A stretch of DNA of 64,000 nucleotides from Anaerolineales bacterium. GTDB lineage: Bacteria > Chloroflexota > Anaerolineae > Anaerolineales > Villigracilaceae. The notes beneath the pieces are model-generated. The model was not told the DNA's origin. It searched no databases and saw nothing but the letters and a program-made list of their open reading frames with translations. Numbering within the stretch: the first letter of the stretch is position 1; each line of letters begins with the position of its first letter. Shown one piece after another: positions 4,608-62,436 of the stretch. The DNA lies in NCBI GenBank assembly GCA_020847435.1, contig JADLBX010000040.1, forward strand, positions 1 through 64,000. Reading direction: 5' to 3'. Made by a program: the position numbers and the translations under genes.

Positions 4608-4793
4608 CGGTGGTCGAGTAGGCGGCATCGCGCTGAGCGGAGCGAGGAGCGCAAGTTGCGACGAACGAAGCCGAAGCGTTGCCGCCGTATCGAGACCACT
4701 AGTTTTCAAAAGTACTCTGGTAACAAGAATTACTTTACGGCGCGGTGGTCTCGATACGTCCCGCGACGATCATGCGGGACTACTCGACCACCG
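4608..4793. repeat. Two-hairpin intergenic element, copy A (CGGTGGTCGAGTAG ... GTATCGAGACCAC ... GTGGTCTCGATACG ... CTACTCGACCACCG)
   Basis: Inverted ends and internal hairpins read directly; related copies at 16916, 18560, 36457, 62287. Confidence 0.9.
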
Positions 4794-4820
4794 AAATAAA
4801 AAAAACAAGAGGAGAAAAAC

Positions 4821-16915: not shown

Positions 16916-17106
16916 CGGTGGTTGAGTAGTCCCGCCGCGCTGAGCGGAGCGATAGCGAAGACGAAGCGTGCGGGGCGTATCCGCTGGGTTGAGCTTGTCG
17001 AAACCGAAACCACAGGCGCGTAAAGCAATACTTGTAACAAAAGCAGACTTGAATACCTTTGGTCTCGATACGGGCGAGGAGAACACTCGCCCTACTCGAC
17101 CAACGA
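16916..17106. repeat. Two-hairpin intergenic element, copy B
   Basis: CGGTGGTTGAGTAG ... TTTGGTCTCGATACGGGCGAGG...CCCTACTCGACCAACG. Confidence 0.85.
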
Positions 17107-18559: not shown

Positions 18560-18714
18560 CCGTTGGTTGAGTAGGCGGCGCTCGTCCGCCGTACACCTGC
18601 ACCCACCGCAGGTGCGGTGTCGAAACCAACTGGTTAGATTCTAACAATTCATTTCTTGGACACCTGTGGTTTCGATACGTCCCGCGACGATCACGCGGGA
18701 CTACTCAACCACCG
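18560..18714. repeat. Two-hairpin intergenic element, copy C
   Basis: CGTTGGTTGAGTAG...GTGTCGAAACCAAC...GTGGTTTCGATACGTCCCGCG...GGGACTACTCAACCACCG. Confidence 0.9.
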
Positions 18715-18739
18715 ATTACTTCTGATGAGGAGAACAATC

Positions 18740-26414: not shown

Positions 26415-27656
26415 ATGCGAATCGCAATGCTTTCATATCACACCTGCCCGCTTGCCACGCTCGGCGGCAAAGACACGGGCGGCATGAACGTCTACGTCCG
26501 TGAGCTCACGCGCCAACTCGGCAAAATGGGCATCCACGTGGACGTGTTCACGCGCTCGCAAGACGACCACGTGCCGCACGTTTTGCACGAACTCGGCTAC
26601 GGCAACCGCGTCGTCCACATCCCTGCGGGACCCGAACACCCCGTGCCGAAACAGGAACTCGCAAATTACATCCCCGAATTCGTCGAGGGGATCAAATCGT
26701 TCGCCTGCGACAAAAAGATTCAATACGACGTCATCCACAGCCACTATTGGATGTCTGGGATTGCCGCCGCGTCTCTTTCGGACCTTTGGGCTGGCGCGCC
26801 TATCGTCCACATGTTCCACACGTTAGGCGAGATGAAGAACCGCATCGCCCGCTCGGACGAGGAACGCGAAGGGGCGTACCGAATCGAGGGTGAGAGGCAG
26901 GTCATCCGTCGCGCGGACCGAATCGTTGTCGCCACGTTGGCAGAGCTGACGCAGTTGCGATTCCTCTACAAAGCGGACGCGTCCAAAATGGTCGTCATCC
27001 CGCCTGGCGTGAATGTGAGTCGCTTTTATCCGATTCCATCCGACGAGGCGAAAGAGTTTGTGGGTTTGAAGCCCGACGATCGGATGATCCTGTTCGTGGG
27101 GCGCATCGAGCCGCTCAAAGGCGTGGACACGCTGCTCGAGGCGATGTCTTGTTTGCAGATGAAGGAGTCGCGCCCCGTGCATTTGGCGATCATCGGCGGC
27201 GACCCTTCGGCAAGCCCCGAAAAGATGAACGCCGAAATGGCGCGCCTGAAAAATTTGTGCGAGGTTCTTGGGTTGGATCAATCGGTGGTGTTTTTGGGCG
27301 TGCGCGACCAGGATAAACTTTCGTATTATTACTCGGCGGCGGAGGTGGTGGTGATGCCGTCGCATTACGAGTCGTTCGGCATGGTGGCGCTCGAAGCGAT
27401 GGCGTGCGGTACGCCTGTCATCGCTTCCGAAGTGGGCGGACTCGCCTACCTCGTCCGCGACGGCGAGACGGGTTTCACCATCCCCGCCGAGGAACCCGAA
27501 ACGCTGTGCGAAAAATTATCCTGGCTGTTGAACGACCCCGACCTGCACGACTCGATGAGCAAGCGCGCCGTCGAGTACGCACAAGATTACGCGTGGGAGA
27601 AGGTCGCAGAGCAGATTGTGGATCTTTACAACCATCTGTCACCTATCAATTTGTAA
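26415..27656 (+). CDS. GT4-family glycosyltransferase (sucrose-phosphate synthase/MshA-like)
   Basis: GGMNVYVRELTRQLG, VIHSHYWMSG, FVGRIEPLKGVDTLLEA, SHYESFGMVALEAMACGTPVIAS. Confidence 0.92.
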   Translation: MRIAMLSYHTCPLATLGGKDTGGMNVYVRELTRQLGKMGIHVDVFTRSQDDHVPHVLHELGYGNRVVHIPAGPEHPVPKQELANYIPEFVEGIKSFACDKKIQYDVIHSHYWMSGIAAASLSDLWAGAPIVHMFHTLGEMKNRIARSDEEREGAYRIEGERQVIRRADRIVVATLAELTQLRFLYKADASKMVVIPPGVNVSRFYPIPSDEAKEFVGLKPDDRMILFVGRIEPLKGVDTLLEAMSCLQMKESRPVHLAIIGGDPSASPEKMNAEMARLKNLCEVLGLDQSVVFLGVRDQDKLSYYYSAAEVVVMPSHYESFGMVALEAMACGTPVIASEVGGLAYLVRDGETGFTIPAEEPETLCEKLSWLLNDPDLHDSMSKRAVEYAQDYAWEKVAEQIVDLYNHLSPINL

Positions 27657-27744: not shown

Positions 27745-29082
27745 TCATTTGGATTTTTGGACCCATTTAGTTTGGATTATTTTGATAATAGTCGGAATCA
27801 TATGACGCATTGTGGCCGGGATACGCTTTTCATTTAAGTACTTGTAAAGATCTTTCTTTATCTGCCTCAGGGTTACATCTGAATTTGACTTAAGTTTATA
27901 CCCCGAAACTTGATGGAGTTCCAAAATTTTTCGAATCAACTCATTTGCAGTTTGTTTTGAGCTATCGATGATTTTTAGTGAAAAACGGACCAGGTCCCAG
28001 CGATCTTTTAGCGCCGGATCAATTTTCTTGATAACACTATCTAGAAGATAATCAGGCATTGCCATTATCTGTCCGATCGATGGGTAGCTATTGTTATTAT
28101 TTTGTCCAGCGTGATCTATCATGTTTTGGTGAAGCCTGAAAAATAAATTGAGAATCTCTGCTGATTGCTGTGAATGCTTATCGATGCTTTCGGACGATTT
28201 ATAAGACTTTATGTGTTCCATCTCATCGATAAAAATTACAATTCTTTTATAGCCCGCTTGATGGCATAGCCGAAGCGTTAAATCTATCAATTCATTATTT
28301 TTCGCACTTCGTGTCAATTCTTTTATCAAGCGATCGAAATCAGGTTCTTGAGATTTCTCCTCTCCCAGGTCTAATAATCGGTAAATAAATTCATTTTGGA
28401 ACGCAATTTGGCTATGCTTATTAATCTCTTCTGATATAGCCTTATCTCTTGCCAATTTTTGGCGATCCGCATCTTGTTTCTGCCGTATTTTCTGTAATGC
28501 ATACTTCGCAACCCATTTTCCTGGAATAGTTACCACTGGTGCTGGACTCGACGCTGCTCCTATATCTACGACAAGGTCAAATAATTGACGCGCGATTACT
28601 CTTTTCTGATCAACTGAATAATTTTTCCCGTTGACTATAGGCTCAGCTATCCTGGAATAAATATCTTGTAAAACGCCGAAATAATTGGTTTTATCCGGTA
28701 GTTTATTGCTAAAATATGACAAACCCTTGATAAATAAGTATTGAAAGTCTTCTTCTTGTCTTAAATCCCTCAGCTCAATCCATGTGCATAAAGTATTTTT
28801 ATCGTTTGACAATGATTGACTGAGTAATAAATAAAGGTAGCGAAAGAAGTGGGTCTTGCCTATACCTATATCTCCCAAAAGAACCTTTGGGGCATACACA
28901 TCCACATTTTCGGAAAGTTCTATTATCTCTTCTGCAAAACTGTTGGCTAGGTTTCTAAAATCATTTCCCGCAGTGTAATGCAGGTAATAATCTTCCAATG
29001 GTGGAGGGGAACCGCCGGATAGGAGTGTTTTTAGTAAACTTCGGTACTCTTTGTTTGCCATATTGCCCTTCCTGGAAAGCAT
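27745..29082 (-). CDS. AAA/KAP-like P-loop ATPase of unknown function
   Basis: Walker A LGDIGIGKTHFFRYL; Walker B RIVIFIDEMEH; AT-rich; operonic with 29089..29859. Confidence 0.75.
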   Translation of the reverse strand: MLSRKGNMANKEYRSLLKTLLSGGSPPPLEDYYLHYTAGNDFRNLANSFAEEIIELSENVDVYAPKVLLGDIGIGKTHFFRYLYLLLSQSLSNDKNTLCTWIELRDLRQEEDFQYLFIKGLSYFSNKLPDKTNYFGVLQDIYSRIAEPIVNGKNYSVDQKRVIARQLFDLVVDIGAASSPAPVVTIPGKWVAKYALQKIRQKQDADRQKLARDKAISEEINKHSQIAFQNEFIYRLLDLGEEKSQEPDFDRLIKELTRSAKNNELIDLTLRLCHQAGYKRIVIFIDEMEHIKSYKSSESIDKHSQQSAEILNLFFRLHQNMIDHAGQNNNNSYPSIGQIMAMPDYLLDSVIKKIDPALKDRWDLVRFSLKIIDSSKQTANELIRKILELHQVSGYKLKSNSDVTLRQIKKDLYKYLNEKRIPATMRHMIPTIIKIIQTKWVQKSK

Positions 29083-29088
29083 GATTCG

Positions 29089-29859
29089 CTAAAGAACTTG
29101 GATAAGATAGATATCTTCCCTTGCTTGTTGAATTTTTAGTATACCGTCTTGTGTATTTGCTATTTCAATCGCTACTCTTAGTAGATCAATTTTCTTTCCC
29201 GGGTATCGTTCCCTCAATAAAAGTTCTAAGTCGCTTATTGAAACAAATGGGTCGTTTTGAGTTTTTGACGCAATAGAATAGAGCTCGCGCAAAACCTTGA
29301 GTCCAGCCATTAGTTTTGAATTTAATTCAATTTGTATCTCATTAGTTTGTGCTTCTGAATTTGCGATCGGTTTATATATAGGGCGAGGGCGATCCTCAAT
29401 AACACCTTTTGGAGACAAACGAGGTCGCAGTTCAACGTGCTGGGTTCGTGTGTTCAGAATAATAATACCTAGAACCAATAACGTTACTATGCCTATAGCA
29501 ATAAATGATAACCAGCGAATAATAGTAAAAGATGGAGAAATTGCCTCTGTGTGAGGGGTTGGAGTTGCGGTAGTAAAAGTTGCCGTCGGTGTTGTGATAG
29601 CAGTTGGGCTTATGGTAAAACTGGCAACTACGGTTGGGGTAGTTGTCAATGCTTTTGTTGATGTCGCAGGTTGAGCCGAAGTGCTTGAAGGCAAAGTAGT
29701 TGTCGTCAGATTTGTTTCTACCGTGGGTTGAGTATCGTCAGCTAGTGCACCATAGTTTGGTCGAACTAACGCCCACAACATAAAAAGAAATGATATTGTT
29801 AGCGTCAACAGGATTCTGTGGCGCACCTCATAGATAGTTTGGTGAGATTGTTTTTTCAT
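29089..29859 (-). CDS. Membrane protein with two TM segments, Thr/Pro-rich extracellular stretch and a cytoplasmic C-terminal domain
   Basis: TM LLTLTISFLFMLWALV; TTTTLPSSTSAQPATSTKALTTTPT low-complexity region; second TM WLSFIAIGIVTLLVLGIIIL. Confidence 0.6.
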   Translation of the reverse strand: MKKQSHQTIYEVRHRILLTLTISFLFMLWALVRPNYGALADDTQPTVETNLTTTTLPSSTSAQPATSTKALTTTPTVVASFTISPTAITTPTATFTTATPTPHTEAISPSFTIIRWLSFIAIGIVTLLVLGIIILNTRTQHVELRPRLSPKGVIEDRPRPIYKPIANSEAQTNEIQIELNSKLMAGLKVLRELYSIASKTQNDPFVSISDLELLLRERYPGKKIDLLRVAIEIANTQDGILKIQQAREDIYLIQVL

Positions 29860-30296: not shown

Positions 30297-30426
30297 CGGC
30301 TTCACTATCCCCGCCGAGGAACCTGCACGACTCAATGGGCAAACGCGCCGTCGAGTACGCGCAAGATTACGCGTGGGAGAAGGTCGCTGGGCAGATTGTG
30401 GGGGTGTACGAGGGGTTGATTGGTTA
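30297..30426 (+). pseudogene. Decayed duplicate of the 3' end of the 26415 glycosyltransferase gene
   Basis: DGFTIPAEEP ... LHDSMGKRAVEYAQDYAWEKVAGQIVGVYEGLIG*; matches GT C-terminus GFTIPAEEP...LHDSMSKRAVEYAQDYAWEKVAEQIV with an internal deletion/frameshift. Confidence 0.9.
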
Positions 30427-36456: not shown

Positions 36457-36598
36457 CGGTGGTTGAGTAGGGACGGTGAAGTTCCGTCCCGTATCGAAAC
36501 CACCAGCGCCTAAAGCAACTTTCATAACAGGATTACTCTTGAACATCGGTGGTCTCGATACGTCCCGCGACAAGCATTGCGGGACTACTCGACCACCG
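36457..36598. repeat. Two-hairpin intergenic element, copy D
   Basis: CGGTGGTTGAGTAGGGACGGTGAAGTTCCGTCCCGTATCGAAACCACC...GGTGGTCTCGATACGTCCCGCG...GGGACTACTCGACCACCG. Confidence 0.92.
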
Positions 36599-52032: not shown

Positions 52033-52782
52033 TTGAATATCGAATTTCAGAAAGGATTTTTTAGTATGTCACAAAATGCAGGCACAGGACGTAAAGCGAG
52101 AGTCCCGCGCACGAGTACCAGCTCGGCGCGACCGTCTTCGTCGAGCGCGAGCGGCGGCGCAGATTTGTCCGCGTTGTTCAATGTGGCGGCGAAAGCGCTC
52201 GCCGCCAATCAACAATCGTTGAACCAGGCGGACGCGCAGAACGGCAATCACGGCGATAACATGGTGCAGATGTTCAACATGCTCACGCAGGTGATGGGTG
52301 AACAGAAAGGCGCTTCGCCATCACAGCAGTTGAGCAACGCCAGCCAGTACCTCCAACAACACGCCACTAGCGGATCGTCGCAGGTGTACGCGCAGGGATT
52401 GGCTCAAGCCGCGCAACAATTTCAGGGACAAAAATCCATCAATCAGGATAACGCGATGATGTTGGTGCAATCGCTCCTCGGCGGTGGACAGCCTGCCCAA
52501 CAACAAAGCGGCGGCGCGGACTTGCTTGGGTCATTGCTCGGCGCGGTGACGCAGTCTCAGCAACCGCAACAACAGCAAAACGACGGCATTGACCTTGGCG
52601 ACGTGCTCAACGCGGGCATGGCGTTCATGAACGCGAAGAACCAGGGACAGGATAATTTGCAAGCGGGACTATCTGCCCTCATGGCGGCGGGACCGCTCGG
52701 GCAGAGTCCGCACCGACAGCAATCGGGTCAGGTGGTTGGGAACGCGCTGATGCAGGCGATCTCGATGATGGGGAAGAAGTGA
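52033..52782 (+). CDS. Gln-rich low-complexity protein with possible DAK2/DhaL-like NGNHGDNM motif
   Basis: QQ-rich stretches; LNQADAQNGNHGDNMVQMF. Confidence 0.5.
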   Translation: MNIEFQKGFFSMSQNAGTGRKARVPRTSTSSARPSSSSASGGADLSALFNVAAKALAANQQSLNQADAQNGNHGDNMVQMFNMLTQVMGEQKGASPSQQLSNASQYLQQHATSGSSQVYAQGLAQAAQQFQGQKSINQDNAMMLVQSLLGGGQPAQQQSGGADLLGSLLGAVTQSQQPQQQQNDGIDLGDVLNAGMAFMNAKNQGQDNLQAGLSALMAAGPLGQSPHRQQSGQVVGNALMQAISMMGKK

Positions 52783-52802
52783 TCGGTTGATATAGAAAAT
52801 GG

Positions 52803-52836
52803 AAACTCCGCGCTGAGACGGCGCGGAGTTTTTTTT
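52803..52836 (+). terminator. Terminator AACTCCGCGCTGAGACGGCGCGGAGTTTTTTTT
   Basis: Stem plus T-tract; duplicated at about 53968..53996. Confidence 0.85.
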
Positions 52837-52875
52837 GTTCTCCAACTCAACTTTGACGTGAATATGAATCGAATT

Positions 52876-53388
52876 TCAAGCAAGTCGGTTGTTCAATTCC
52901 TGCAAATGGTTGAGAATTTCGGTATTGAAATCGAATTTGCCCGCTCGTGATAGCAAGCCGCGAACCATCTTTTCAAACTTGTTTCGGTCAATAAAATCAT
53001 TTTGAACGAGAAAAACAATGTCATCAAGGTCGGTGTCGTAGCCGCGATCGAGCTTACTTAGCGAAATGCTGTATGGATCTGCAACAAAAACTTCGAGATT
53101 CCCGAATTGTCCAATGCGAATACTTCGTTGATCGCTGCCTTCTGGCAAGGGAACAAATCGTTCGAGAGGTACAGGCTCAACAAGAATGTTTCTTTCACGA
53201 GCAAGTTGCATGATCGTTTTATGCAATTCGCTGGGAGCAACATCGTCGCCGACGAAATCTATGTCGATTGTGGGACGAGAACTCCCAAGAAGCGCCATAG
53301 CGCTTCCGCCTACCAAAAACATTTTTGATGCGGGCGGAACTATTTCTCCAAGAATATGTAATTTTGCATGGATGTCGGCGTTGTCCAC
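52876..53388 (-). CDS. DUF6036-like nucleotidyltransferase
   Basis: MFLVGGSAMALLGSSRPTIDIDFVGDD (GG-S ... DxD); GTG start about 53388 directly after upstream stop. Confidence 0.65.
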   Translation of the reverse strand: MDNADIHAKLHILGEIVPPASKMFLVGGSAMALLGSSRPTIDIDFVGDDVAPSELHKTIMQLARERNILVEPVPLERFVPLPEGSDQRSIRIGQFGNLEVFVADPYSISLSKLDRGYDTDLDDIVFLVQNDFIDRNKFEKMVRGLLSRAGKFDFNTEILNHLQELNNRLA

Positions 53389-53390
53389 GA

Positions 53391-53882
53391 TTATGCCTTT
53401 TGTAATTCCAATCCCTTGAGCCAGATTCGCGCCGCGTGTTCGTACGTGCCGAGCCAATTGATCTGCGCGCCGCTTAACTCCTTGTGGCGTTTGGCAAGTT
53501 CTTGTAGATTTTCGTCAACGTTTTCGACGGCGTGCAGTCCCAACTCTTTCGAGAAATAATCGGGCATTGAAATTCTCAAAAGAAATTTCTGTCCGAACCA
53601 GACTGCCGCGCTGTAATAACATTGGAGCGTGAGTCGAGCGGGCGCGTCGAGTCGTTTCGCCGCTTCTTGGGCATAGTTGGAAAACTCAGGATGTTCGAGA
53701 AATAGCGGGATGAGCGATAGGCGCAAACGAGCGTCGCCGCTTTCGGCAAGGGCCGCAATTAGGAGCGCGGGTTGTTTGTGCAGCGCTTCGATTTCTCTGT
53801 GTCCGCCCATAATAAATTTGACGCCCAATGCGTGCAGGGAATTCGTAAGTTGGTCGTCCGTGATGGCAACTGTCTTGCTCAT
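53391..53882 (-). CDS. Helical protein partnered with the nucleotidyltransferase, unknown function
   Basis: Start MSKTVAITDD at 53882; stop 53391 lies 2 nt from the next start. Confidence 0.55.
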   Translation of the reverse strand: MSKTVAITDDQLTNSLHALGVKFIMGGHREIEALHKQPALLIAALAESGDARLRLSLIPLFLEHPEFSNYAQEAAKRLDAPARLTLQCYYSAAVWFGQKFLLRISMPDYFSKELGLHAVENVDENLQELAKRHKELSGAQINWLGTYEHAARIWLKGLELQKA

Positions 53883-53897
53883 GCTTGAATTATATCG

Positions 53898-54000
53898 TAG
53901 GTTGGGAGCGCGCTCTTGCAGGCGATCTCGATGATGGGGCAAAAGTGATCGGTTGACGTGGAAAATGGAAACTCCGCGCGGAGATGGCGCGGAGTTTTTG
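53898..54000 (+). repeat. Diverged duplicate of the 3' end plus terminator of 52033..52782
   Basis: GSALLQAISMMGQK*-ATCGGTTGA...GGAAACTCCGCG...GCGCGGAGTTTTT vs NALMQAISMMGKK*-ATCGGTTGA...GGAAACTCCGCGC... Confidence 0.92.
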
Positions 54001-54013
54001 ATTCGGGATTGAC

Positions 54014-56722
54014 CTACTCTCCCAATTCCCTGGCGGATACAACCACACTGTAATTCACCCCTAACGTTTTGTTGAAATGTTGTTTTCCCGCGATGATCTT
54101 TCGTCTCTCAGCGTGTCGTAGTTTATCTAGGTCGCGCGTGTCCTTTGTCTCTCTGACGAGATAAAGGACATCTTCTACTTCCCCGTCTTCGTTTTTCTTT
54201 TCCAATACGATCGCCCAATCGGGATTGTATTCCCCAATGGGTGTGGGAACGGTAAACCACGAAGGCAGTTTGACGTACAGTTTTACATCTTCGCGCTTTT
54301 CCAAATCCGCTACAAATCTTTTCTCAACCTCCGAGTCGTAAATTACGTGTTCGTAGATGGAATGCGGCGAGGGGATCAGGCTATCTTCCCAGTTTGGAAG
54401 GTCTACAAACTGCGTCATTTCGTAGTACTCGTTAATTTTTTCGTATTGAATTCCTTCCACGAGTTGATCGGCAAGTTTGTTCTTGATGATGCGGGAGGCA
54501 ATCGAAGCAAACTCAAAAGGATTTTTGAGCGCGGCTTGTTGAATCGTATTCGCGCATTGCTTGTAGATCTCCAGCAAAGTAATCCGCGTTAACCGAATGG
54601 TCGGGGAGGTGCGCTCCAGGACTGCAGAAACCAACTCGGTAATGTTAGGCAAAGACATCGTTTCGTAGCCTTCGCCCATCGGACGTTCGGCGGTTTGGAT
54701 GGCGGTAAAGAATTTATCTTTGGCTTCCAGCCTTGCGCGGCGGACAACGATCTGCGGCGGGCGGATGGTTTCCTCGTTCAATTCCTTTACCGTATCTGCG
54801 ATCAGCTTCTGGCTGTCAATTGTCACGTTGTAGCGCGTCTTGTGTTTGATGCGTTCCCACAATTCTTTGAATTCAGGTTTGAGTTCAAAGCCTTTGCGGA
54901 GCCGCGCGGTTTTCTGCTTACGGGCGCTGGGCGGGTTCGGGGGTAGATTGCCAGCCCCATACTCCGCTTCCAGTTCGGATTGATATTTGCCAACGTAACT
55001 TTCGTAGCTCTCATTCGCAATGACCGTCAAAATGTTGACCTGCTCATCGCGCACTCTTTCGCCCTGCTGGTTGATCGCCAACCGCACGCCGCGACCGATC
55101 TCCTGCCGTTTCTTCATTTCGGAAGTGGTTTGGTTGAGTGTGCAAATCTGGAAAACATTCGGGCTGTCCCAGCCTTCACGCAGTGCGGAGTGAGAAAAGA
55201 TGAAGCAGGTGGGTTCCTCGAACGACATCAACCTTTCCTTGTCTTTCATGATTAGGTCGTAGGTTTCTTTGTCTCTTTCAGACTCGCCCGTTTTACTGTC
55301 TTCGTAGACGATCTCGCCTGTCTTTGTCCTGCGCGACGCAAAGTAGGCGGCTTGGACCTTGTCCGATTCGATCTCGCTAAATTCGGTATTCGACTTTAGC
55401 TCGTTGAACGCCTTGTTGAACAAGACGCGGATCAACCCGTCTTCGTTTGCATAATTATCCACGCGGTCAATGAAGAACAGCGAAAGGACTTTGATCCCGC
55501 GTTCGCGCAGTCGTTTTTGTTTGCGGAAGTGTTCCTGAACGGTGTAGCGGATCTGCGCCTCGAAGACGGCTTTCTTATCCGCGCCGCGCGATTCGCCCAC
55601 GCGGAGTTCCGCGTTGTTTTGAAACAGCACGGACTGGTTGCCGACGCTGATCTCCTCCACGACGAAGCCCGCATAGTCCGGGCGGTTGGCTTTCTTTTCC
55701 AGCGTATCGCCCGGCTTGACCGTGATAATTTTTTCTTTGACGGTTCCGTTCTTCAGCAAGGCGTGGACGGCAATCCTCGCCGTGAGGGTTTTCTTCTCCG
55801 AGTTCACCTCGTCCAACCGTAAAAATGCCTGGTTTTCATCGGATTCTTTTTCCACGCCTGCCACTTCGACGCGTTTGACCAGCCCCTGCCGATAGGCTTC
55901 GTAGGGCGTGAGACGGTAGACCAGATTGTACGGATTACGATGGGTGGCGGAGTAACGCAGAGCGAAGAGCGGATTGAGCGCGGCGAGCGCGGCGACCCGT
56001 AATTCGCTTTCCATATTTTGCGGCTCGTCCAAAATCAGAATCGGGCGCGCGGCTTGCACGAGATGGATCGGCGTTTCGCCTTGCAGGCGGTCGGTGGTCT
56101 GGTTGATCACGTTGGTGGATTTGTTGAACGAGTCGATGGTCATCACCATGAGCTCGACGCTTTCCGAGAGCGCAAACTGCCGCACCTGCGAAAGATTCGC
56201 CGAGTCGTAGGCGTAATAGCGGCACGGCGTATTGTCGTACAGTTCGCGCAAATGCTTCTGGGTGATCTCCAGCGTTTTTAACACGCCTTCGCGCACCGCC
56301 ACCGATGGGACAACGATTATGAATTTCCGAAACCCATAGCGGCGGAAGAGTTCGAAGGCGGTTCGCAAATAGACGTACGTTTTGCCTGTGCCCGTTTCCA
56401 TCTCCACCGAGAAGTTGTGGAAGTTGACGCGTTCTTTGCCCTCGATGGTTTCGATCACGCGCTCGATGGGCATGAATTCGCGATCGGGTTCGATGCCGTT
56501 CTCATTTTGAACTTTATTCAGGTTGGCGAGCAGTTCCGCATCGGAGAGATCGAGGCGGTTGGGGATCGCCGCGAAACCGAAGGTAAACTGCACGTCGGTT
56601 CGGAGGCGCGGTTGACCGTCGAAGAGGTTGGCGACCGCTTCGACGGCTTGGATTTGAAATTCCTGACTGGAATCGAATTTGATCTGCATCAGCGTGTGTG
56701 CTATATCGTCTTCAACCTGCAC
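54014..56722 (-). CDS. Type III restriction enzyme, Res subunit (helicase/endonuclease)
   Basis: VEMETGTGKTYVYLRTAFELF, ILDEPQN, FIFSHSALREGWDSPNVFQICTL, RQEIGRGVRLAIN. Confidence 0.9.
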   Translation of the reverse strand: MQVEDDIAHTLMQIKFDSSQEFQIQAVEAVANLFDGQPRLRTDVQFTFGFAAIPNRLDLSDAELLANLNKVQNENGIEPDREFMPIERVIETIEGKERVNFHNFSVEMETGTGKTYVYLRTAFELFRRYGFRKFIIVVPSVAVREGVLKTLEITQKHLRELYDNTPCRYYAYDSANLSQVRQFALSESVELMVMTIDSFNKSTNVINQTTDRLQGETPIHLVQAARPILILDEPQNMESELRVAALAALNPLFALRYSATHRNPYNLVYRLTPYEAYRQGLVKRVEVAGVEKESDENQAFLRLDEVNSEKKTLTARIAVHALLKNGTVKEKIITVKPGDTLEKKANRPDYAGFVVEEISVGNQSVLFQNNAELRVGESRGADKKAVFEAQIRYTVQEHFRKQKRLRERGIKVLSLFFIDRVDNYANEDGLIRVLFNKAFNELKSNTEFSEIESDKVQAAYFASRRTKTGEIVYEDSKTGESERDKETYDLIMKDKERLMSFEEPTCFIFSHSALREGWDSPNVFQICTLNQTTSEMKKRQEIGRGVRLAINQQGERVRDEQVNILTVIANESYESYVGKYQSELEAEYGAGNLPPNPPSARKQKTARLRKGFELKPEFKELWERIKHKTRYNVTIDSQKLIADTVKELNEETIRPPQIVVRRARLEAKDKFFTAIQTAERPMGEGYETMSLPNITELVSAVLERTSPTIRLTRITLLEIYKQCANTIQQAALKNPFEFASIASRIIKNKLADQLVEGIQYEKINEYYEMTQFVDLPNWEDSLIPSPHSIYEHVIYDSEVEKRFVADLEKREDVKLYVKLPSWFTVPTPIGEYNPDWAIVLEKKNEDGEVEDVLYLVRETKDTRDLDKLRHAERRKIIAGKQHFNKTLGVNYSVVVSARELGE

Positions 56723-58554
56723 TGTAACGACAGATTCGCCGCGGTCTCGTCATCCAACGCGACGTCGCGGCAGATGAACAGGTCGTCCTTCTTCAGGTTC
56801 AAGGGTTTTACATCTTTCCATTTGACTTTGTCCGCGAGGGAAATGTAGAAACTTTGACCTCGCTCTGCGTCGTTGACCCTCTGTACGCCCGTGGATTCGG
56901 TCTCGGTCAAGGAGAGGTTGAGTCCGAAGCCTTCCTTCAGCGCGACCTCGTAAATAACATCCTCTTCCTTCCAGTCTTTCACGAGCGGATCGGCGAGCAT
57001 TTCCATTTGTTTGGCATAGGCTTTCGGGTCTTGCTGTTCGGAATCGTCCCACCCCTTGTAATTGGACTCGCGCAGTTTGAAGACCTTGAAGCCCAAATCT
57101 TCGGGCTTGTCCAACTGCATTTGACCCTCGCGTTCTTTCTTCATTTTCTTGATCACGCGGCGGATGCGTTCCTTGCCGATATCGGCGATTGTGGGAAATT
57201 CCTTGTTTTGCGTAGGTTCGGGCAGTTGCACTAGAATGAATTTTCGGTTGCCGCCGTCTTCGCGGTTGAGTTCTAAAGTCGCATGGGCGGTAGCGGCCGA
57301 GCCAGCGAAAAAATCGAGAATCAATTCAGTTTCGTTGTTTGTTGTCCCAATTTGGATGAGTGTTTTGATAAACCTGCTTGGTTTTGGGAAAGGGAAAACT
57401 TGCGCGTCACCGAACAAGTCAATTATTTCGTTTGTGCCGTGTTGTGTAAAGATGTCGTCGATTAGCGAAAAAGCTTTTGTTTCTCTTTGGTTGCCCTGCT
57501 CATCTTTCAGGTATTGTTTTGTGTGAACAGTCCAATTATTGTTGACCTTGATAAACTCAAGCTCGTTATTTTCCAATGCTTTCAACACTCTTTCTTTTGA
57601 CCAAAGCCATTGCCTCTTAGGCAGAACTTTAGTCCCGTCAGGAGCAGTAATCGGGAAAACTAAATTTTTTCTTTCGCCCATACTCTTCGTTGCTTCGAGC
57701 GGGTGGGTGCGGTATGAACCACGAATAGAAAATTTATCATCCTTAAGTTTGTAATATCGGTCAATTGATTCTTGATCGGTAGGAACAAAGATGTTTTCAA
57801 GCGCATTTATGTCTTTCGCGTAAAATAATACATACTCATGCACGCTTACTAAAAACTTTTCTTTTGCTCCACCGCCATATCTTTTCTTTCAGATGATATT
57901 GTCAATGAAATTTTCTTCCCCAAAAATTTCGTTCATTAGCAAGCGTAGATCGTGAACTTCGTTATCGTCAATGCTTACAAAAATTACCCCATCATCTTGA
58001 AGCAACTGCCTCGCTAAAAACAAACGCGGGTACATCATCGAGAGCCACGCCGAGTGGTAACGTCCGCTGGTTTCGGCGTTACTGGTGAGTAAATTTCCGT
58101 CGCTGTCTTTTTGTCCCGTGAGTTTCAAATAGGTGTCGAGTGGGTCGGCGAAGTTATCGGGGTACACGAAGTCGTTGCCCGTGTTGTAGGGCGGGTCAAT
58201 GTAGATCATCTTGACCTGCCCGAAGTACGGCTTGTAGAGCAGTTTCAACGCTTCGAGGTTGTCGCCCTCGATGAACAGGTTTTGGGTCTTATCGAAGTCC
58301 ACCGATTCCTTGCGCGCGGGGACCAGCGTGGCGCGCGAGGGCGTTTGCAGGATTTTGAGCGCGTCTCGTTTTCCCGCCCATGAAAACGAATAGCGTTCGG
58401 GTCGTTCGTCGCCGAAATCGCCGAGCGCCGCGTGCAGTTTCTCGAAATCAATTTTGCCCTCGCTGAAAACGTGCGGCAGGAGTCCGCGCAACTCTGCGAG
58501 TTGTTCGTCTGTGATGGATGGCGTTCGTTTGTTGACGGGTGATTTTTTAGCCAT
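56701..58554 (-). pseudogene. Type III DNA methyltransferase Mod interrupted by one in-frame TGA (57891-57889)
   Basis: N part with DPPYNTGNDFVYPDNF and C part LILDFFAGSAATAHA lie in the same frame; ...NFIDNII-TGA-KKRYGGGAKEKFLVSVHEYVLFYAKD. Confidence 0.88.
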
Positions 58555-58617: not shown

Positions 58618-58662
58618 TCACTCCTTCCGACACTCTGCCGCGTACGCGGGATTTGCCGATCC
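58618..58662 (-). repeat. Diverged duplicate of the 3' end of the 59684 cyclase gene (NPAYAAECRKE*)
   Basis: TCACTCCTTCCGACACTCTGCCGCGTACGCGGGATTT vs TCATTCCTTCCGATACTCCACCGCATACGCGGGGATTT at 59684. Confidence 0.75.
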
Positions 58663-58839
58663 AGCGGAGGGTGGGCATGACATAATGGGTTCTCCTGTAA
58701 AGTCAATTGTACACAAAATTAAAAGCCCGACGAATATCCGACAGGCTGGGTCTCGAAGTCATTTACGCCGAGGATAGATCGGCGGGTATTCACTGACACA
58801 GGAATCCCTCAATCTCCGCAAATTTACCCGCGTGTTCGA

Positions 58840-59556
58840 TCATGGAATACCGCCAAGCAGTGAAATTAAAAAGCCGAAGACGATCAATAGGATAACGAGT
58901 CCCCACCATAATTTGATCCGTACGACTGGCAACCCCAAGCAGGAACCCAATAACCCAAGGATCGCAATGCGCGGCGTGAAATTCATTCCATTCCAATAAA
59001 CAATACTGACGACCGATCCAAGGGTTATTCCGAACAATGCGAATGCTAAATTCTTCGGAGTTTCGCCGAGGACTCCGCCGATCGCTCCAATAAATAAACT
59101 TACAATGACCCCAAACGGCAGTCCTGCGACCAAAAATAATCGTACAACGTTCCACGACGGATACTCACCGATAACCAGAACAAACATGGCAAAGAAGACG
59201 GTGATCCAGATTACCCCATACACGATCTGCCTCACTAAAATCGAACTTGAAAGATCGCCGAAATCAAAGTCGAGGGAAAAGGCGCGCAGTTTAAAATCTG
59301 TGAGCATGAATTGCAGAAATTTTCCCAAAAGGATAACTGCCACGCCAAATAGAGTTAGGCTAAACGCGAAACTCAACCAAAAGAATAACTGAAAAAACGC
59401 GCTCTGTGAAAACGATTGGATCCCAATATTTTGGAATAAAGATAAAACGACACGATCCCACCATTGACGGACGTCAAGGATATCCAGTACAAAGCCGACG
59501 AAAGTTAAGCCCGCGCCGATCGCAACCATCGAGTTCTTGAAAAAATCCTTCGCCAT
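58840..59556 (-). CDS. Multi-pass membrane protein, unknown function
   Basis: Multiple hydrophobic segments (AIGAGLTFVGFVLDI, FFWLSFAFSLTLFGVAVILLG, VIWITVFFAMFVLVIG ...). Confidence 0.65.
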   Translation of the reverse strand: MAKDFFKNSMVAIGAGLTFVGFVLDILDVRQWWDRVVLSLFQNIGIQSFSQSAFFQLFFWLSFAFSLTLFGVAVILLGKFLQFMLTDFKLRAFSLDFDFGDLSSSILVRQIVYGVIWITVFFAMFVLVIGEYPSWNVVRLFLVAGLPFGVIVSLFIGAIGGVLGETPKNLAFALFGITLGSVVSIVYWNGMNFTPRIAILGLLGSCLGLPVVRIKLWWGLVILLIVFGFLISLLGGIP

Positions 59557-59683
59557 GATCCCTCCCGTTTCGATATTTGAAAAGTTGTGGTGAAAAGGTC
59601 AAAGTGTTCCAGCATAATGTGGATATGTTTTATTGTCCCGATTATAAAACAAAGAGTTTCGTAATCGCCCCCTTTGCCGAACT

Positions 59684-60334
59684 TCATTCCTTCCGATACT
59701 CCACCGCATACGCGGGGATTTCGATCCCCGAGATCGAAATCTTCAACTCGCGCGCTTTGATGTTCGCTTCGGCGGGAATCATGTTGAACGCGTCTTTGGT
59801 GATGAGCACTTCGCCCGAGGCGGCGATGTCCTCTCCCATTTTCGAGGCGCGGTTGACGGGGTCGCCGAAGCAGTCGTCGTGTCCCACCACGAGGATGCGT
59901 CCGTAGTCAATGCCGCAGGCGATGTGGATGTCGAGATCGTCCGAGGTGAGCAGGTTCGAGGCGGTGAACGCGTGCTGCATCGCCACCGCCGCGTTCACCG
60001 CCGCCAGCGGATTCGGAAACACGGCGAAGCAATTGTCCGCTTCGTATTTGATCATCGTCCCATCGAACGACTCGACGATGGGGCGCGTGGTCAACTGCAT
60101 CCGCCGCACCATCGAAAGGTAGTGGACGATTCCATACTTGCGCGTCAGCAGTGAGAAGCCCGACATGTCCAACACGAACACGGCAAACTCCGCGCCGAAG
60201 CCGTCCCATAATTTTTGTTCCAGCGCTTTTCGTTTGCGTATTTCCTCCTCTTGCGAAAACTTGAGGAGCAAGTCTTGGAATCGTTTCGCGGGTGTCGTTT
60301 TTTTAGTCGCCATTTTTCCTTTGGTAGACCTCAC
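59684..60334 (-). CDS. Adenylate/guanylate cyclase catalytic-domain protein
   Basis: FAVFVLDMSGFSLLTRKYGIVHYLSMVRRM; YEADNCFAVFPNPLAAVNAAVAMQ; HVACGIDYGR-like region; GDPVNRASKMGEDIAASGEVLITKDAF. Confidence 0.85.
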   Translation of the reverse strand: MRSTKGKMATKKTTPAKRFQDLLLKFSQEEEIRKRKALEQKLWDGFGAEFAVFVLDMSGFSLLTRKYGIVHYLSMVRRMQLTTRPIVESFDGTMIKYEADNCFAVFPNPLAAVNAAVAMQHAFTASNLLTSDDLDIHIACGIDYGRILVVGHDDCFGDPVNRASKMGEDIAASGEVLITKDAFNMIPAEANIKARELKISISGIEIPAYAVEYRKE

Positions 60335-60363: not shown

Positions 60364-61785
60364 TTATATATCACCCGGCTCGTCCGCCATCCGCACAACT
60401 TTCGGCGTGAACTTGCCGATCACGTCCACGAGATCGCTCTGCGCGGCGAGGACTTTGTCCACGGGCTTATATGCCTGCGGCGACTCGTCGAGTCCGCCGC
60501 CCAGCAAGGTGACGCCGCGCGCTTTGAGATACTCGTCCCGTTCGCGCTTGCTGATGGAATTCAGCGCGGCTTTGCGGCTCATCAGCCTGCCCGCGCCATG
60601 CGAAGCGGACTCCAATGCCTCCGCCGCGCCTCGCCCGCGGACGACGTAGCCCGCGTCGCCCATCGAGCCGGGGATCACGCCCAACACGCCCAGCCCGGCA
60701 GGAGTCGCGCCTTTGCGGTGGACGATCGCTTCGCGTCCATCGGGCAATTTCTCGCGCCAGGCAAAATTATGATGATTCTCCACCACCGCCACTTCTTTCA
60801 GTCCAACCGATGCGGCGACGCGGTGATGGATGACGTAATGATTTGCCGCCGCAAACCTGCCCGCCAACTCCATCGAAAGCCAATATTCCTGCCCCTCCTC
60901 CGAATCGAGGTTCAGCCATGCGAGGTGACGAACGCTCTTGTCCAAATTTGGCTGTTTCTCCATCGCGACTTTACTGAACCGTTCGGCGATCCGCGCGCCC
61001 ACGCCGCGCGATCCGCTGTGCGAAAGCAGCGCGAGATACTCGCCGGGTTTCAACCCGAACATTTCCTCGTCCAATCGGAACGATCCCCACTCGACGAAAT
61101 GATTTCCCGTTCCGCTTGTGCCGAGTTGGGCGTAGGCAGTGTCGTGCAGCGTTTGCAGTTGGCGCGTCGCTTCCCATGCCGGGTCGTCCAGCACGGGGTG
61201 ACTGGCGCGCTTCGATCCCGTCCATTTTGCGCCCATGCCGAAGGCAGTCTCGTTCCACAACGATTCCTCGAACATGCCTTTCTTCTGTCCGATCAGGATC
61301 GGCGAGACTTCGTAGATCGAAAGCCTCATGCGGCAGGCAATGTCCACACCGACCGCGTACGGGATGACCGTATTTTCCGTGGCAAGCACGCCGCCGATGG
61401 GAAGCCCATAGCCGACGTGCGCGTCGGGCATCAACGCGCCGCTCACGCTGACGGGCAACCGCATCGCGTTGTCCATTTGGCTGAGCGCGCCCTCGTCAAT
61501 TTGCTCGCGTCCCCAAACGGGATACGCCAACGGCGCGTCGCGCAGAGCGCTCGGCGACGGCTCCTCTTTTTGATTCAAGCGGATGCACTCGCGCGCCAAC
61601 TCCGCCAGCGCCGCGTCGGCGAGGAAACTGCCGGGGTTGGCGCGCACAGCCTCAAGTTTGGCGAGAGCCGAGTCCCGATCCAAGCCTCCCTCGATCAATT
61701 TGTTCCCCGCCTCTTTCGCCAGCCCGATCAATTTCCCCTCGTGCCAGTTATGATATTTCAGGATTTTTCCTGTGAGGATGTCCAT
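60364..61785 (-). CDS. rtcB: RtcB-family RNA ligase
   Basis: MPDAHVGYGLPIGGVLATENTVIPYAVGVDIACRM; LGTSGTGNHFVEWG; start 61785. Confidence 0.9.
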   Translation of the reverse strand: MDILTGKILKYHNWHEGKLIGLAKEAGNKLIEGGLDRDSALAKLEAVRANPGSFLADAALAELARECIRLNQKEEPSPSALRDAPLAYPVWGREQIDEGALSQMDNAMRLPVSVSGALMPDAHVGYGLPIGGVLATENTVIPYAVGVDIACRMRLSIYEVSPILIGQKKGMFEESLWNETAFGMGAKWTGSKRASHPVLDDPAWEATRQLQTLHDTAYAQLGTSGTGNHFVEWGSFRLDEEMFGLKPGEYLALLSHSGSRGVGARIAERFSKVAMEKQPNLDKSVRHLAWLNLDSEEGQEYWLSMELAGRFAAANHYVIHHRVAASVGLKEVAVVENHHNFAWREKLPDGREAIVHRKGATPAGLGVLGVIPGSMGDAGYVVRGRGAAEALESASHGAGRLMSRKAALNSISKRERDEYLKARGVTLLGGGLDESPQAYKPVDKVLAAQSDLVDVIGKFTPKVVRMADEPGDI

Positions 61786-61800
61786 GATATTTCCTTTTGC

Positions 61801-61827
61801 AGCGCGACATGAATGTCGCGTTACGGA
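61801..61827. repeat. GCGACATGAATGTCGCGTTAC palindrome, copy 1
   Basis: Same sequence at 62644; variant GCGACATAAATGTCCCGTTAC near 20231. Confidence 0.88.
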
Positions 61828-62286: not shown

Positions 62287-62436
62287 GTGGCGGTCGAGTA
62301 GTCCCGAGTGATTTTTCGAGTGGCGTATCGAGACCACGTTTCCAGCAAATCACATCTGCCGTTTGGTCTCGATACGGCGGCATATAGTAGAGTTTCTGGA
62401 AAACAAGCGCTCTTTCTGCCGCCTACTCGACCAACG
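62287..62436. repeat. Two-hairpin intergenic element, copy E
   Basis: GGCGGTCGAGTAGTCCCG...GTATCGAGACCACG...TTTGGTCTCGATACGGCGGC...GCCGCCTACTCGACCAACG. Confidence 0.88.

Follow-up and report, generated by a model that had tools for sequence, protein, structure and literature searches.

Displaced gene ends suggest repeated addition of small foreign genes behind existing genes in an Anaerolineales genome

In a 64,000-nt stretch of DNA (the window) from a MAG of an Anaerolineales-type Chloroflexota (74 contigs, 88.6% complete), the final 45 bases of a small nucleotidyl cyclase gene occur again, in decayed form, 1 kb beyond the gene, and an orphan membrane-protein gene is found between the two copies. 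The same signature recurs at other genes, and the data suggest that small foreign genes have repeatedly been added behind existing genes without a recognisable transposase or integrase. Most likely, these are integrase-less additive insertions anchored in the host gene, arising either through homology-facilitated illegitimate recombination or through insertion with long target duplication. We assign a probability of roughly 0.55 to the former, i.e. to an anchored, integrase-less addition of the cassette behind the cyclase by homology-facilitated illegitimate recombination, with the same process acting at many genes.

The duplicated cyclase 3' end and its locus

Alignment of the two sites confirmed that the second cyclase tail is real. 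The gapped alignment covers 44-45 nt and terminates precisely at the stop codon; 38 of 43 aligned bases are identical, with one 2-nt and one 1-nt gap in addition, and the ungapped core returned by the repeat search measures 33 nt (58618-58650 / 59684-59716; 28/33, 85%). Past the stop the alignment is weak (48/59, to +16), leaving a far remnant of 45 nt. Both copies run in the same reading frame up to the stop, the gene ending in ...IPAYAVEYRKE and the minus-strand reading at 58618-58662 being GSANPAYAAECRKE, each followed by the stop codon. The alignment score of 49 compares with a maximum of 33 among 500 dinucleotide shuffles (Gumbel p = 4.7e-7) and with a best score of 35 among 18 genuine 6-kb segments taken from elsewhere in the window. 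Moreover, a degenerate pattern of the cyclase tail, allowing up to three mismatches, detected just these two sites across the 3.05-Mb assembly, and a genome-wide repeat was therefore rejected. The match is just 45 nt long, which is what chance similarity or a dispersed repeat would have in its favor. However, with p at about 5e-7 against the shuffles, only two genomic sites, both of them near the gene, and a frame shared to the stop, such an explanation is hardly credible.

The initial annotation, which had reported this duplication, gave the correct coordinates for the repeat (58618-58662 and the cyclase end) and for the membrane-protein gene between the copies (58840-59556). Its count of 38 matching bases out of 44 is right in the 38 identities and left out the gaps (38/43 columns plus two gaps). 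The opposite-strand ORF strings that it offered as independent evidence are the same DNA read antisense. It had called for a nucleotide alignment with shuffling controls, which is the one described above, and had named a score within the shuffles, or a genome-wide repeat unrelated to the cyclase, as results that would speak against it; neither was obtained. Its view of an island flanked by the duplicated 3' end of the target gene gains support from the low GC content of the insert (Table 1) and from the membrane-protein gene itself, which is missing from all 151 other family genomes searched.

Table 1. Positions in the window of the cyclase locus and of the two other islands.
Feature	Position	Strand	Remarks
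Cyclase locus: host gene, small class III-type nucleotidyl cyclase, intact	59684..60334	-	208-216 aa; Pfam Guanylate_cyc PF00211, E 4.8e-5, above cut-off
Cyclase locus: host-side repeat copy	59684..59727	-	last 44 nt of the cyclase including the stop codon
Cyclase locus: insert between tail copies	58663..59683	.	1021 bp; 45% GC vs 54% in the window
Cyclase locus: cargo membrane protein	58840..59556	-	238 aa; about six or seven hydrophobic segments
Cyclase locus: far copy	58618..58662	-	decayed 45-nt cyclase 3' end
Type III restriction-modification pair	54014..58554	-	mod 56701-58554, res 54014-56722; adjoins the far copy, outside the repeats
Second island: host-side copy	52734..52848	+	3' end and terminator of gene 52033-52782 (DUF / gltX-neighbour gene)
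Second island: cargo	52876..53942	-	DUF6036/AbiEii-like nucleotidyltransferase and 183-aa partner
Second island: far copy	53900..54019	+	3' end and terminator; 101/115
Glycosyltransferase island: host-side copy	27541..27621	+	inside glycosyltransferase 26415-27656
Glycosyltransferase island: cargo	27745..29859	-	AAA ATPase (445 aa) and 256-aa protein; insert 39% GC
Glycosyltransferase island: far copy	30321..30401	+	75/81; runs on into the native C-terminus seen in G058

The gene order on the minus strand is rtcB, cyclase, membrane-protein gene, tail copy, type III restriction-modification (RM) pair and second island. Cyclase orthologues in related genomes are 87-95% identical. No family was assigned to the 238-aa membrane protein in Pfam, PADLOC or NCBIfam, and nothing matched it in phage and plasmid collections. 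The repeat search detected no inverted repeat bounding the insert, which accordingly lacks the terminal inverted repeats and short target duplication of IS or MITE elements, the duplication being 45 nt long. The mod gene carries an in-frame stop mid-gene at 57889-57891 (minus strand); the type III RM system is therefore probably inactive, or the assembly contains an error at this position. The neighboring rtcB gene (60373-61827) is present between a SnoaL-like gene and the cyclase in the window as well as in the related genomes G066 and G084 and is missing there in G058 and G071; its gain or loss was clean, without duplication at the ends. A dispersed, REP-like hairpin repeat (GTGGTCTCGATACG...GGGACTACTCGACCAC) occupies intergenic positions 4686-4794, 17005-17073, 18666-18715, 36490-36598 and 62289-62337 of the window.

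The neighbor that the cyclase faces in relatives is gltX, in some cases with a small DUF gene in between. This junction is essentially empty in seven of them (G071, L035, L037, L038, L040, L046, L049), and it contains a PIN toxin-type gene in G066, a NucS-like nuclease and a PIN gene in G084, a 165-aa gene and a DUF6036/AbiEii-like pair in G058, and, as judged by eye, an apparent HEPN/nucleotidyltransferase-type pair in L039. These varied fillings mark the cyclase-gltX junction as a hotspot. Among the relatives, none offered a clean empty cyclase site with a flank corresponding to the far copy. Immediately after the stop of the working cyclase, 21 nt match G058, and for this reason the host-side copy looks native.

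Recurrence of displaced tails and their order of arrival

The initial annotation had counted the cyclase locus as the third island of its kind in the window, and the two others, at the glycosyltransferase and at the DUF gene, are equally real (Table 1). The cargo of the second island is common to the sister genome G058. Outside the window, a second cyclase is encoded on contig C54, its protein being 95% identical over 164 aa; here, a 1.35-kb insert that carries an unrelated 342-aa gene separates the cyclase from a 109-nt copy of its tail (89/109). Contamination as the origin of C54 was rejected, since truA occurs once in the genome, on this contig. About ten further genes show the tail signature, and three of them carry serial copies: three far tails at L115 4816-6249, two at L108 122-1198 and two at C24 1848-2735. 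The L115 gene is called MttB-like from reading of the sequence, and a PIN toxin-antitoxin-type pair as well as small genes lie between its far tails. At L115:42-3441, an ABC transporter gene is followed by a DUF2281/PIN toxin-antitoxin-type pair, a copy of the transporter tail (82%) and a second PIN pair.

The inserts lie between direct copies of host sequence measuring 45 nt at the cyclase and 61-115 nt at the glycosyltransferase, MttB-like and DUF genes. These repeats are specific to each host gene and are not shared between inserts, whereas the cassettes of an integron would each be followed by a shared attC-type site. Inspection of 16 junction pairs by eye revealed no shared terminal motif. 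A palindromic element of about 120 nt (GTCCGCT...AGCGGAC core) occurs at L115:6310-6424 and at G000:C32 105872-105983 and 106493-106616, inside two tail-flanked inserts. As a carrier it was rejected, being present in 2 of the 16 inserts with five copies in 0.84 Mb. Around the C32 copies, at 105800-115500, several consecutive genes are each followed by related 40-120 nt intergenic repeats, which gives the region a cassette-like look. At G000:C24 47170-100894, at least seven adjacent, very large ORFs (1400-2570 aa) share modules and perhaps form a polyketide or peptide synthase cluster.

A systematic scan looked within 8 kb for copies of the terminal, initial and central 120 nt of each gene of 150 codons or more, leaving out copies in same-strand ORFs. 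The scan sampled about 0.84 Mb of the genome's own sequence and 0.6 Mb of G058 and is not a census; ORFs were called mechanically, making the counts approximate. Tail copies were found for 11 of 589 own genes and 7 of 442 G058 genes, that is 18 of about 1031, and 17 of these 18 lie downstream of the gene. Gene middles gave 2 of about 1031 in the same scan. Gene heads gave 13 of about 1031, located in both directions with no clear preference, and several of these matches reflect doubtful start codons or antisense readings of a tail copy. In 320 kb of E. coli K-12, tails, heads and middles alike scored 0/234. Three other family genomes yielded 0/143 (G014), 2/145 (G063) and 1/151 (G078, an upstream copy) for tails, so prevalence beyond the near relatives is low or variable, as judged from the counts of these three genomes.

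Comparison with sister genomes indicates the order of events. At the glycosyltransferase, the single site of G058 corresponds in the window to an 81-nt duplication and an insert of 2699 bp. Past the repeat, the far copy reads GVYE... like the G058 gene, while the working gene now ends in DLYNHLSPINL. G058 likewise has a single target copy at the MttB-like gene, where the duplication measures 61 nt. In this case a block of 1060 nt made up of the far tail, the PIN toxin-antitoxin-type pair and the next tail aligns collinearly with the G058 gene end at 92%, and the new 187 bp adjoin the host gene. A bare copy of the palindromic element seems to constitute these 187 bp. Because the site is unoccupied in the sister genome at both genes and the far copy runs on into the gene end of that genome, the new DNA was added beside the gene in each case, with displacement of the native tail. 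Two further cases point the same way, less completely: for the C24 gene, the far tail and about 600 nt are collinear with the G066 gene end, and for a UvrD-like gene the G066 end matches the far copy slightly past the repeat.

Origin of the duplicated tail

According to the anchored model, incoming DNA with homology to the 3' part of a host gene would pair with it there, and its other end would be joined by non-homologous recombination near the recipient's own gene end. The host gene would stay intact with a new or renewed tail and the cargo would settle behind it, so that the old tail and all downstream sequence would be displaced outwards; repeated events would generate serial arrays with the newest cargo nearest the host gene. 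In case of the cyclase, a small foreign cassette (1.02 kb) bearing the membrane-protein gene would have joined directly behind the gene, yielding two copies of its last ~45 bases. One of them still ends the working cyclase, and the other would represent a non-functional scar past the cassette, which has since drifted. We infer the uptake of donor DNA, the anchoring with illegitimate joining, and the operation of this process at the cyclase locus.

Three-way site counts at ten loci address the origin of the host-side tail. Relative to G058, 24 sites were host-copy-only, 50 far-copy-only and 24 outgroup-only, which is star-like. Relative to G066, the corresponding numbers were 22, 53 and 65, and the two copies are sisters. 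From these two results it would follow that the insertions date from around the time of the split from G058, or that the donors were congeners. Overall, the counts favor neither a donor-borne tail nor a duplicated target. The main rival explanation, insertion with long target duplication, differs from the anchored model solely in the origin of this tail: the cassette itself would cut or copy into its target and duplicate 40-110 bp of recipient sequence, and a donor tail would not be involved. In line with this, the tail copies are sisters relative to G066 at most loci, the two cyclase copies in the window share the TGA stop and one further base versus G058 and G066, and the repeats, about 45-115 nt long, agree in size with the "order of 100 bp" quoted in PMC3874152. 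In addition, the type III RM system borders the repeat on its outer side, and the cargo frequently includes toxin-antitoxin genes. However, at the glycosyltransferase and MttB-like genes the two copies agree against G058 at 0 of 12 variable sites, and for this reason the evidence at these two loci leans towards a donor-borne tail. Furthermore, the known cases concern RM genes, whereas the cargo is mostly of other kinds here, and no insert encodes a protein able to perform the reaction. We thus regard long target duplication as unlikely, albeit a serious candidate.

Alternatively, a second full cyclase, in tandem or replaced, might have decayed to its last 45 bases, the membrane-protein gene being a separate arrival. 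The genome does contain two cyclase copies, the remnant at the glycosyltransferase reaches further upstream and has an internal deletion, as would be expected of a gene fragment in decay, and a 308-nt remnant is present in G058. This explanation is nevertheless improbable, as no other cyclase homology was detected at 58663-59683, independent genes all retain their 3' end, nearly always downstream, and insertion suffices to explain the single site of the sister genome at the glycosyltransferase and MttB-like genes; for the cyclase itself, the preference for insertion over decay is argued by analogy with these other loci. A restored gene end and a displaced native tail are typical of integrase islands in gene 3' ends, and an attachment site duplicated by a site-specific integrase, as in icd or tRNA genes, would produce both if the integrase had been lost or acted in trans. 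Yet there is no recombinase in the window inserts, none of four tyrosine-recombinase matches genome-wide is near the islands examined, and the duplicated sequence differs at each host gene, so there is no common core. An integrase-borne island was rejected on the grounds that no recombinase is nearby, and the broader explanation by attachment-site duplication appears very improbable.

Comparison with known systems

Insertion with long target duplication has been described for RM genes of Helicobacter pylori, with duplications of ~100 bp (Nobusato et al. 2000, as cited in PMC3874152, PMC3031569 and PMC4978471). As portrayed in these citing papers, the two situations are alike in that an integrase-less insert is flanked by direct copies of a 40-110 bp target; the target is single in a related genome, in our case at the glycosyltransferase and MttB-like genes. 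They differ in that the H. pylori inserts are RM genes, whereas the copies described here straddle gene 3' ends and enclose varied cargo; at the cyclase an orphan membrane-protein gene lies between the copies and the type III RM genes lie outside. Islands of tyrosine integrases in the 3' ends of protein genes likewise restore the host end and displace the native end, but our inserts have no integrase and no common core and measure just 0.2-2.7 kb. Minimal mobile elements of Neisseria consist of different small genes that occupy one junction between conserved genes across strains without a mobility gene. The cyclase-gltX junction, differently filled and free of a mobility gene, resembles them; a duplicated host tail is not known to be part of the concept. 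Our literature search on gene cassettes or duplicated 3' ends in Anaerolineae retrieved nothing relevant.

The sequential displacement of T6SS effector genes in Vibrio cholerae (PMC5361080) and P. aeruginosa (PMC11751169), for which homology-facilitated illegitimate recombination has been proposed, shares a homologous anchor in a conserved gene and a non-homologous far end with the process proposed here. There, too, the old gene 3' end and the old downstream gene are moved outwards, and the newest material is gene-proximal in serial arrays. In T6SS arrays the exchanged unit is an effector with its immunity gene (PMC5361080; PMC11751169); in contrast, the cargo here comprises toxin-antitoxin, orphan membrane or other small genes, and the hosts, unrelated genes of housekeeping type, retain their reading frame. 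As a tentative generalization, small genes, often toxin-antitoxin genes, may be stacked genome-wide in Anaerolineales, independently of integrases, just downstream of housekeeping genes. Each event would leave a displaced tail behind the 3' end of its host gene, the host genes would serve as anchors, and the arrays would provide a relative chronology of gene gain.

The entry of small genes without mobility functions, such as toxin-antitoxin pairs and orphan membrane proteins, has mostly been deduced from presence and absence. Displaced host-gene tails would be direct scars of single events, which preserve the site of insertion, its polarity and the order of arrival with the newest first, and which lend themselves to automated searches. 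Should the pattern prove to be family-wide, the mechanism proposed for T6SS weapon loci and RM genes would extend to ordinary genes, which can be tested by counting. Taken as a whole, the process is of a known kind with a molecular step that we infer; its lasting interest is the recurrence of the scar across the genome and the ordering of gene gains that it permits.
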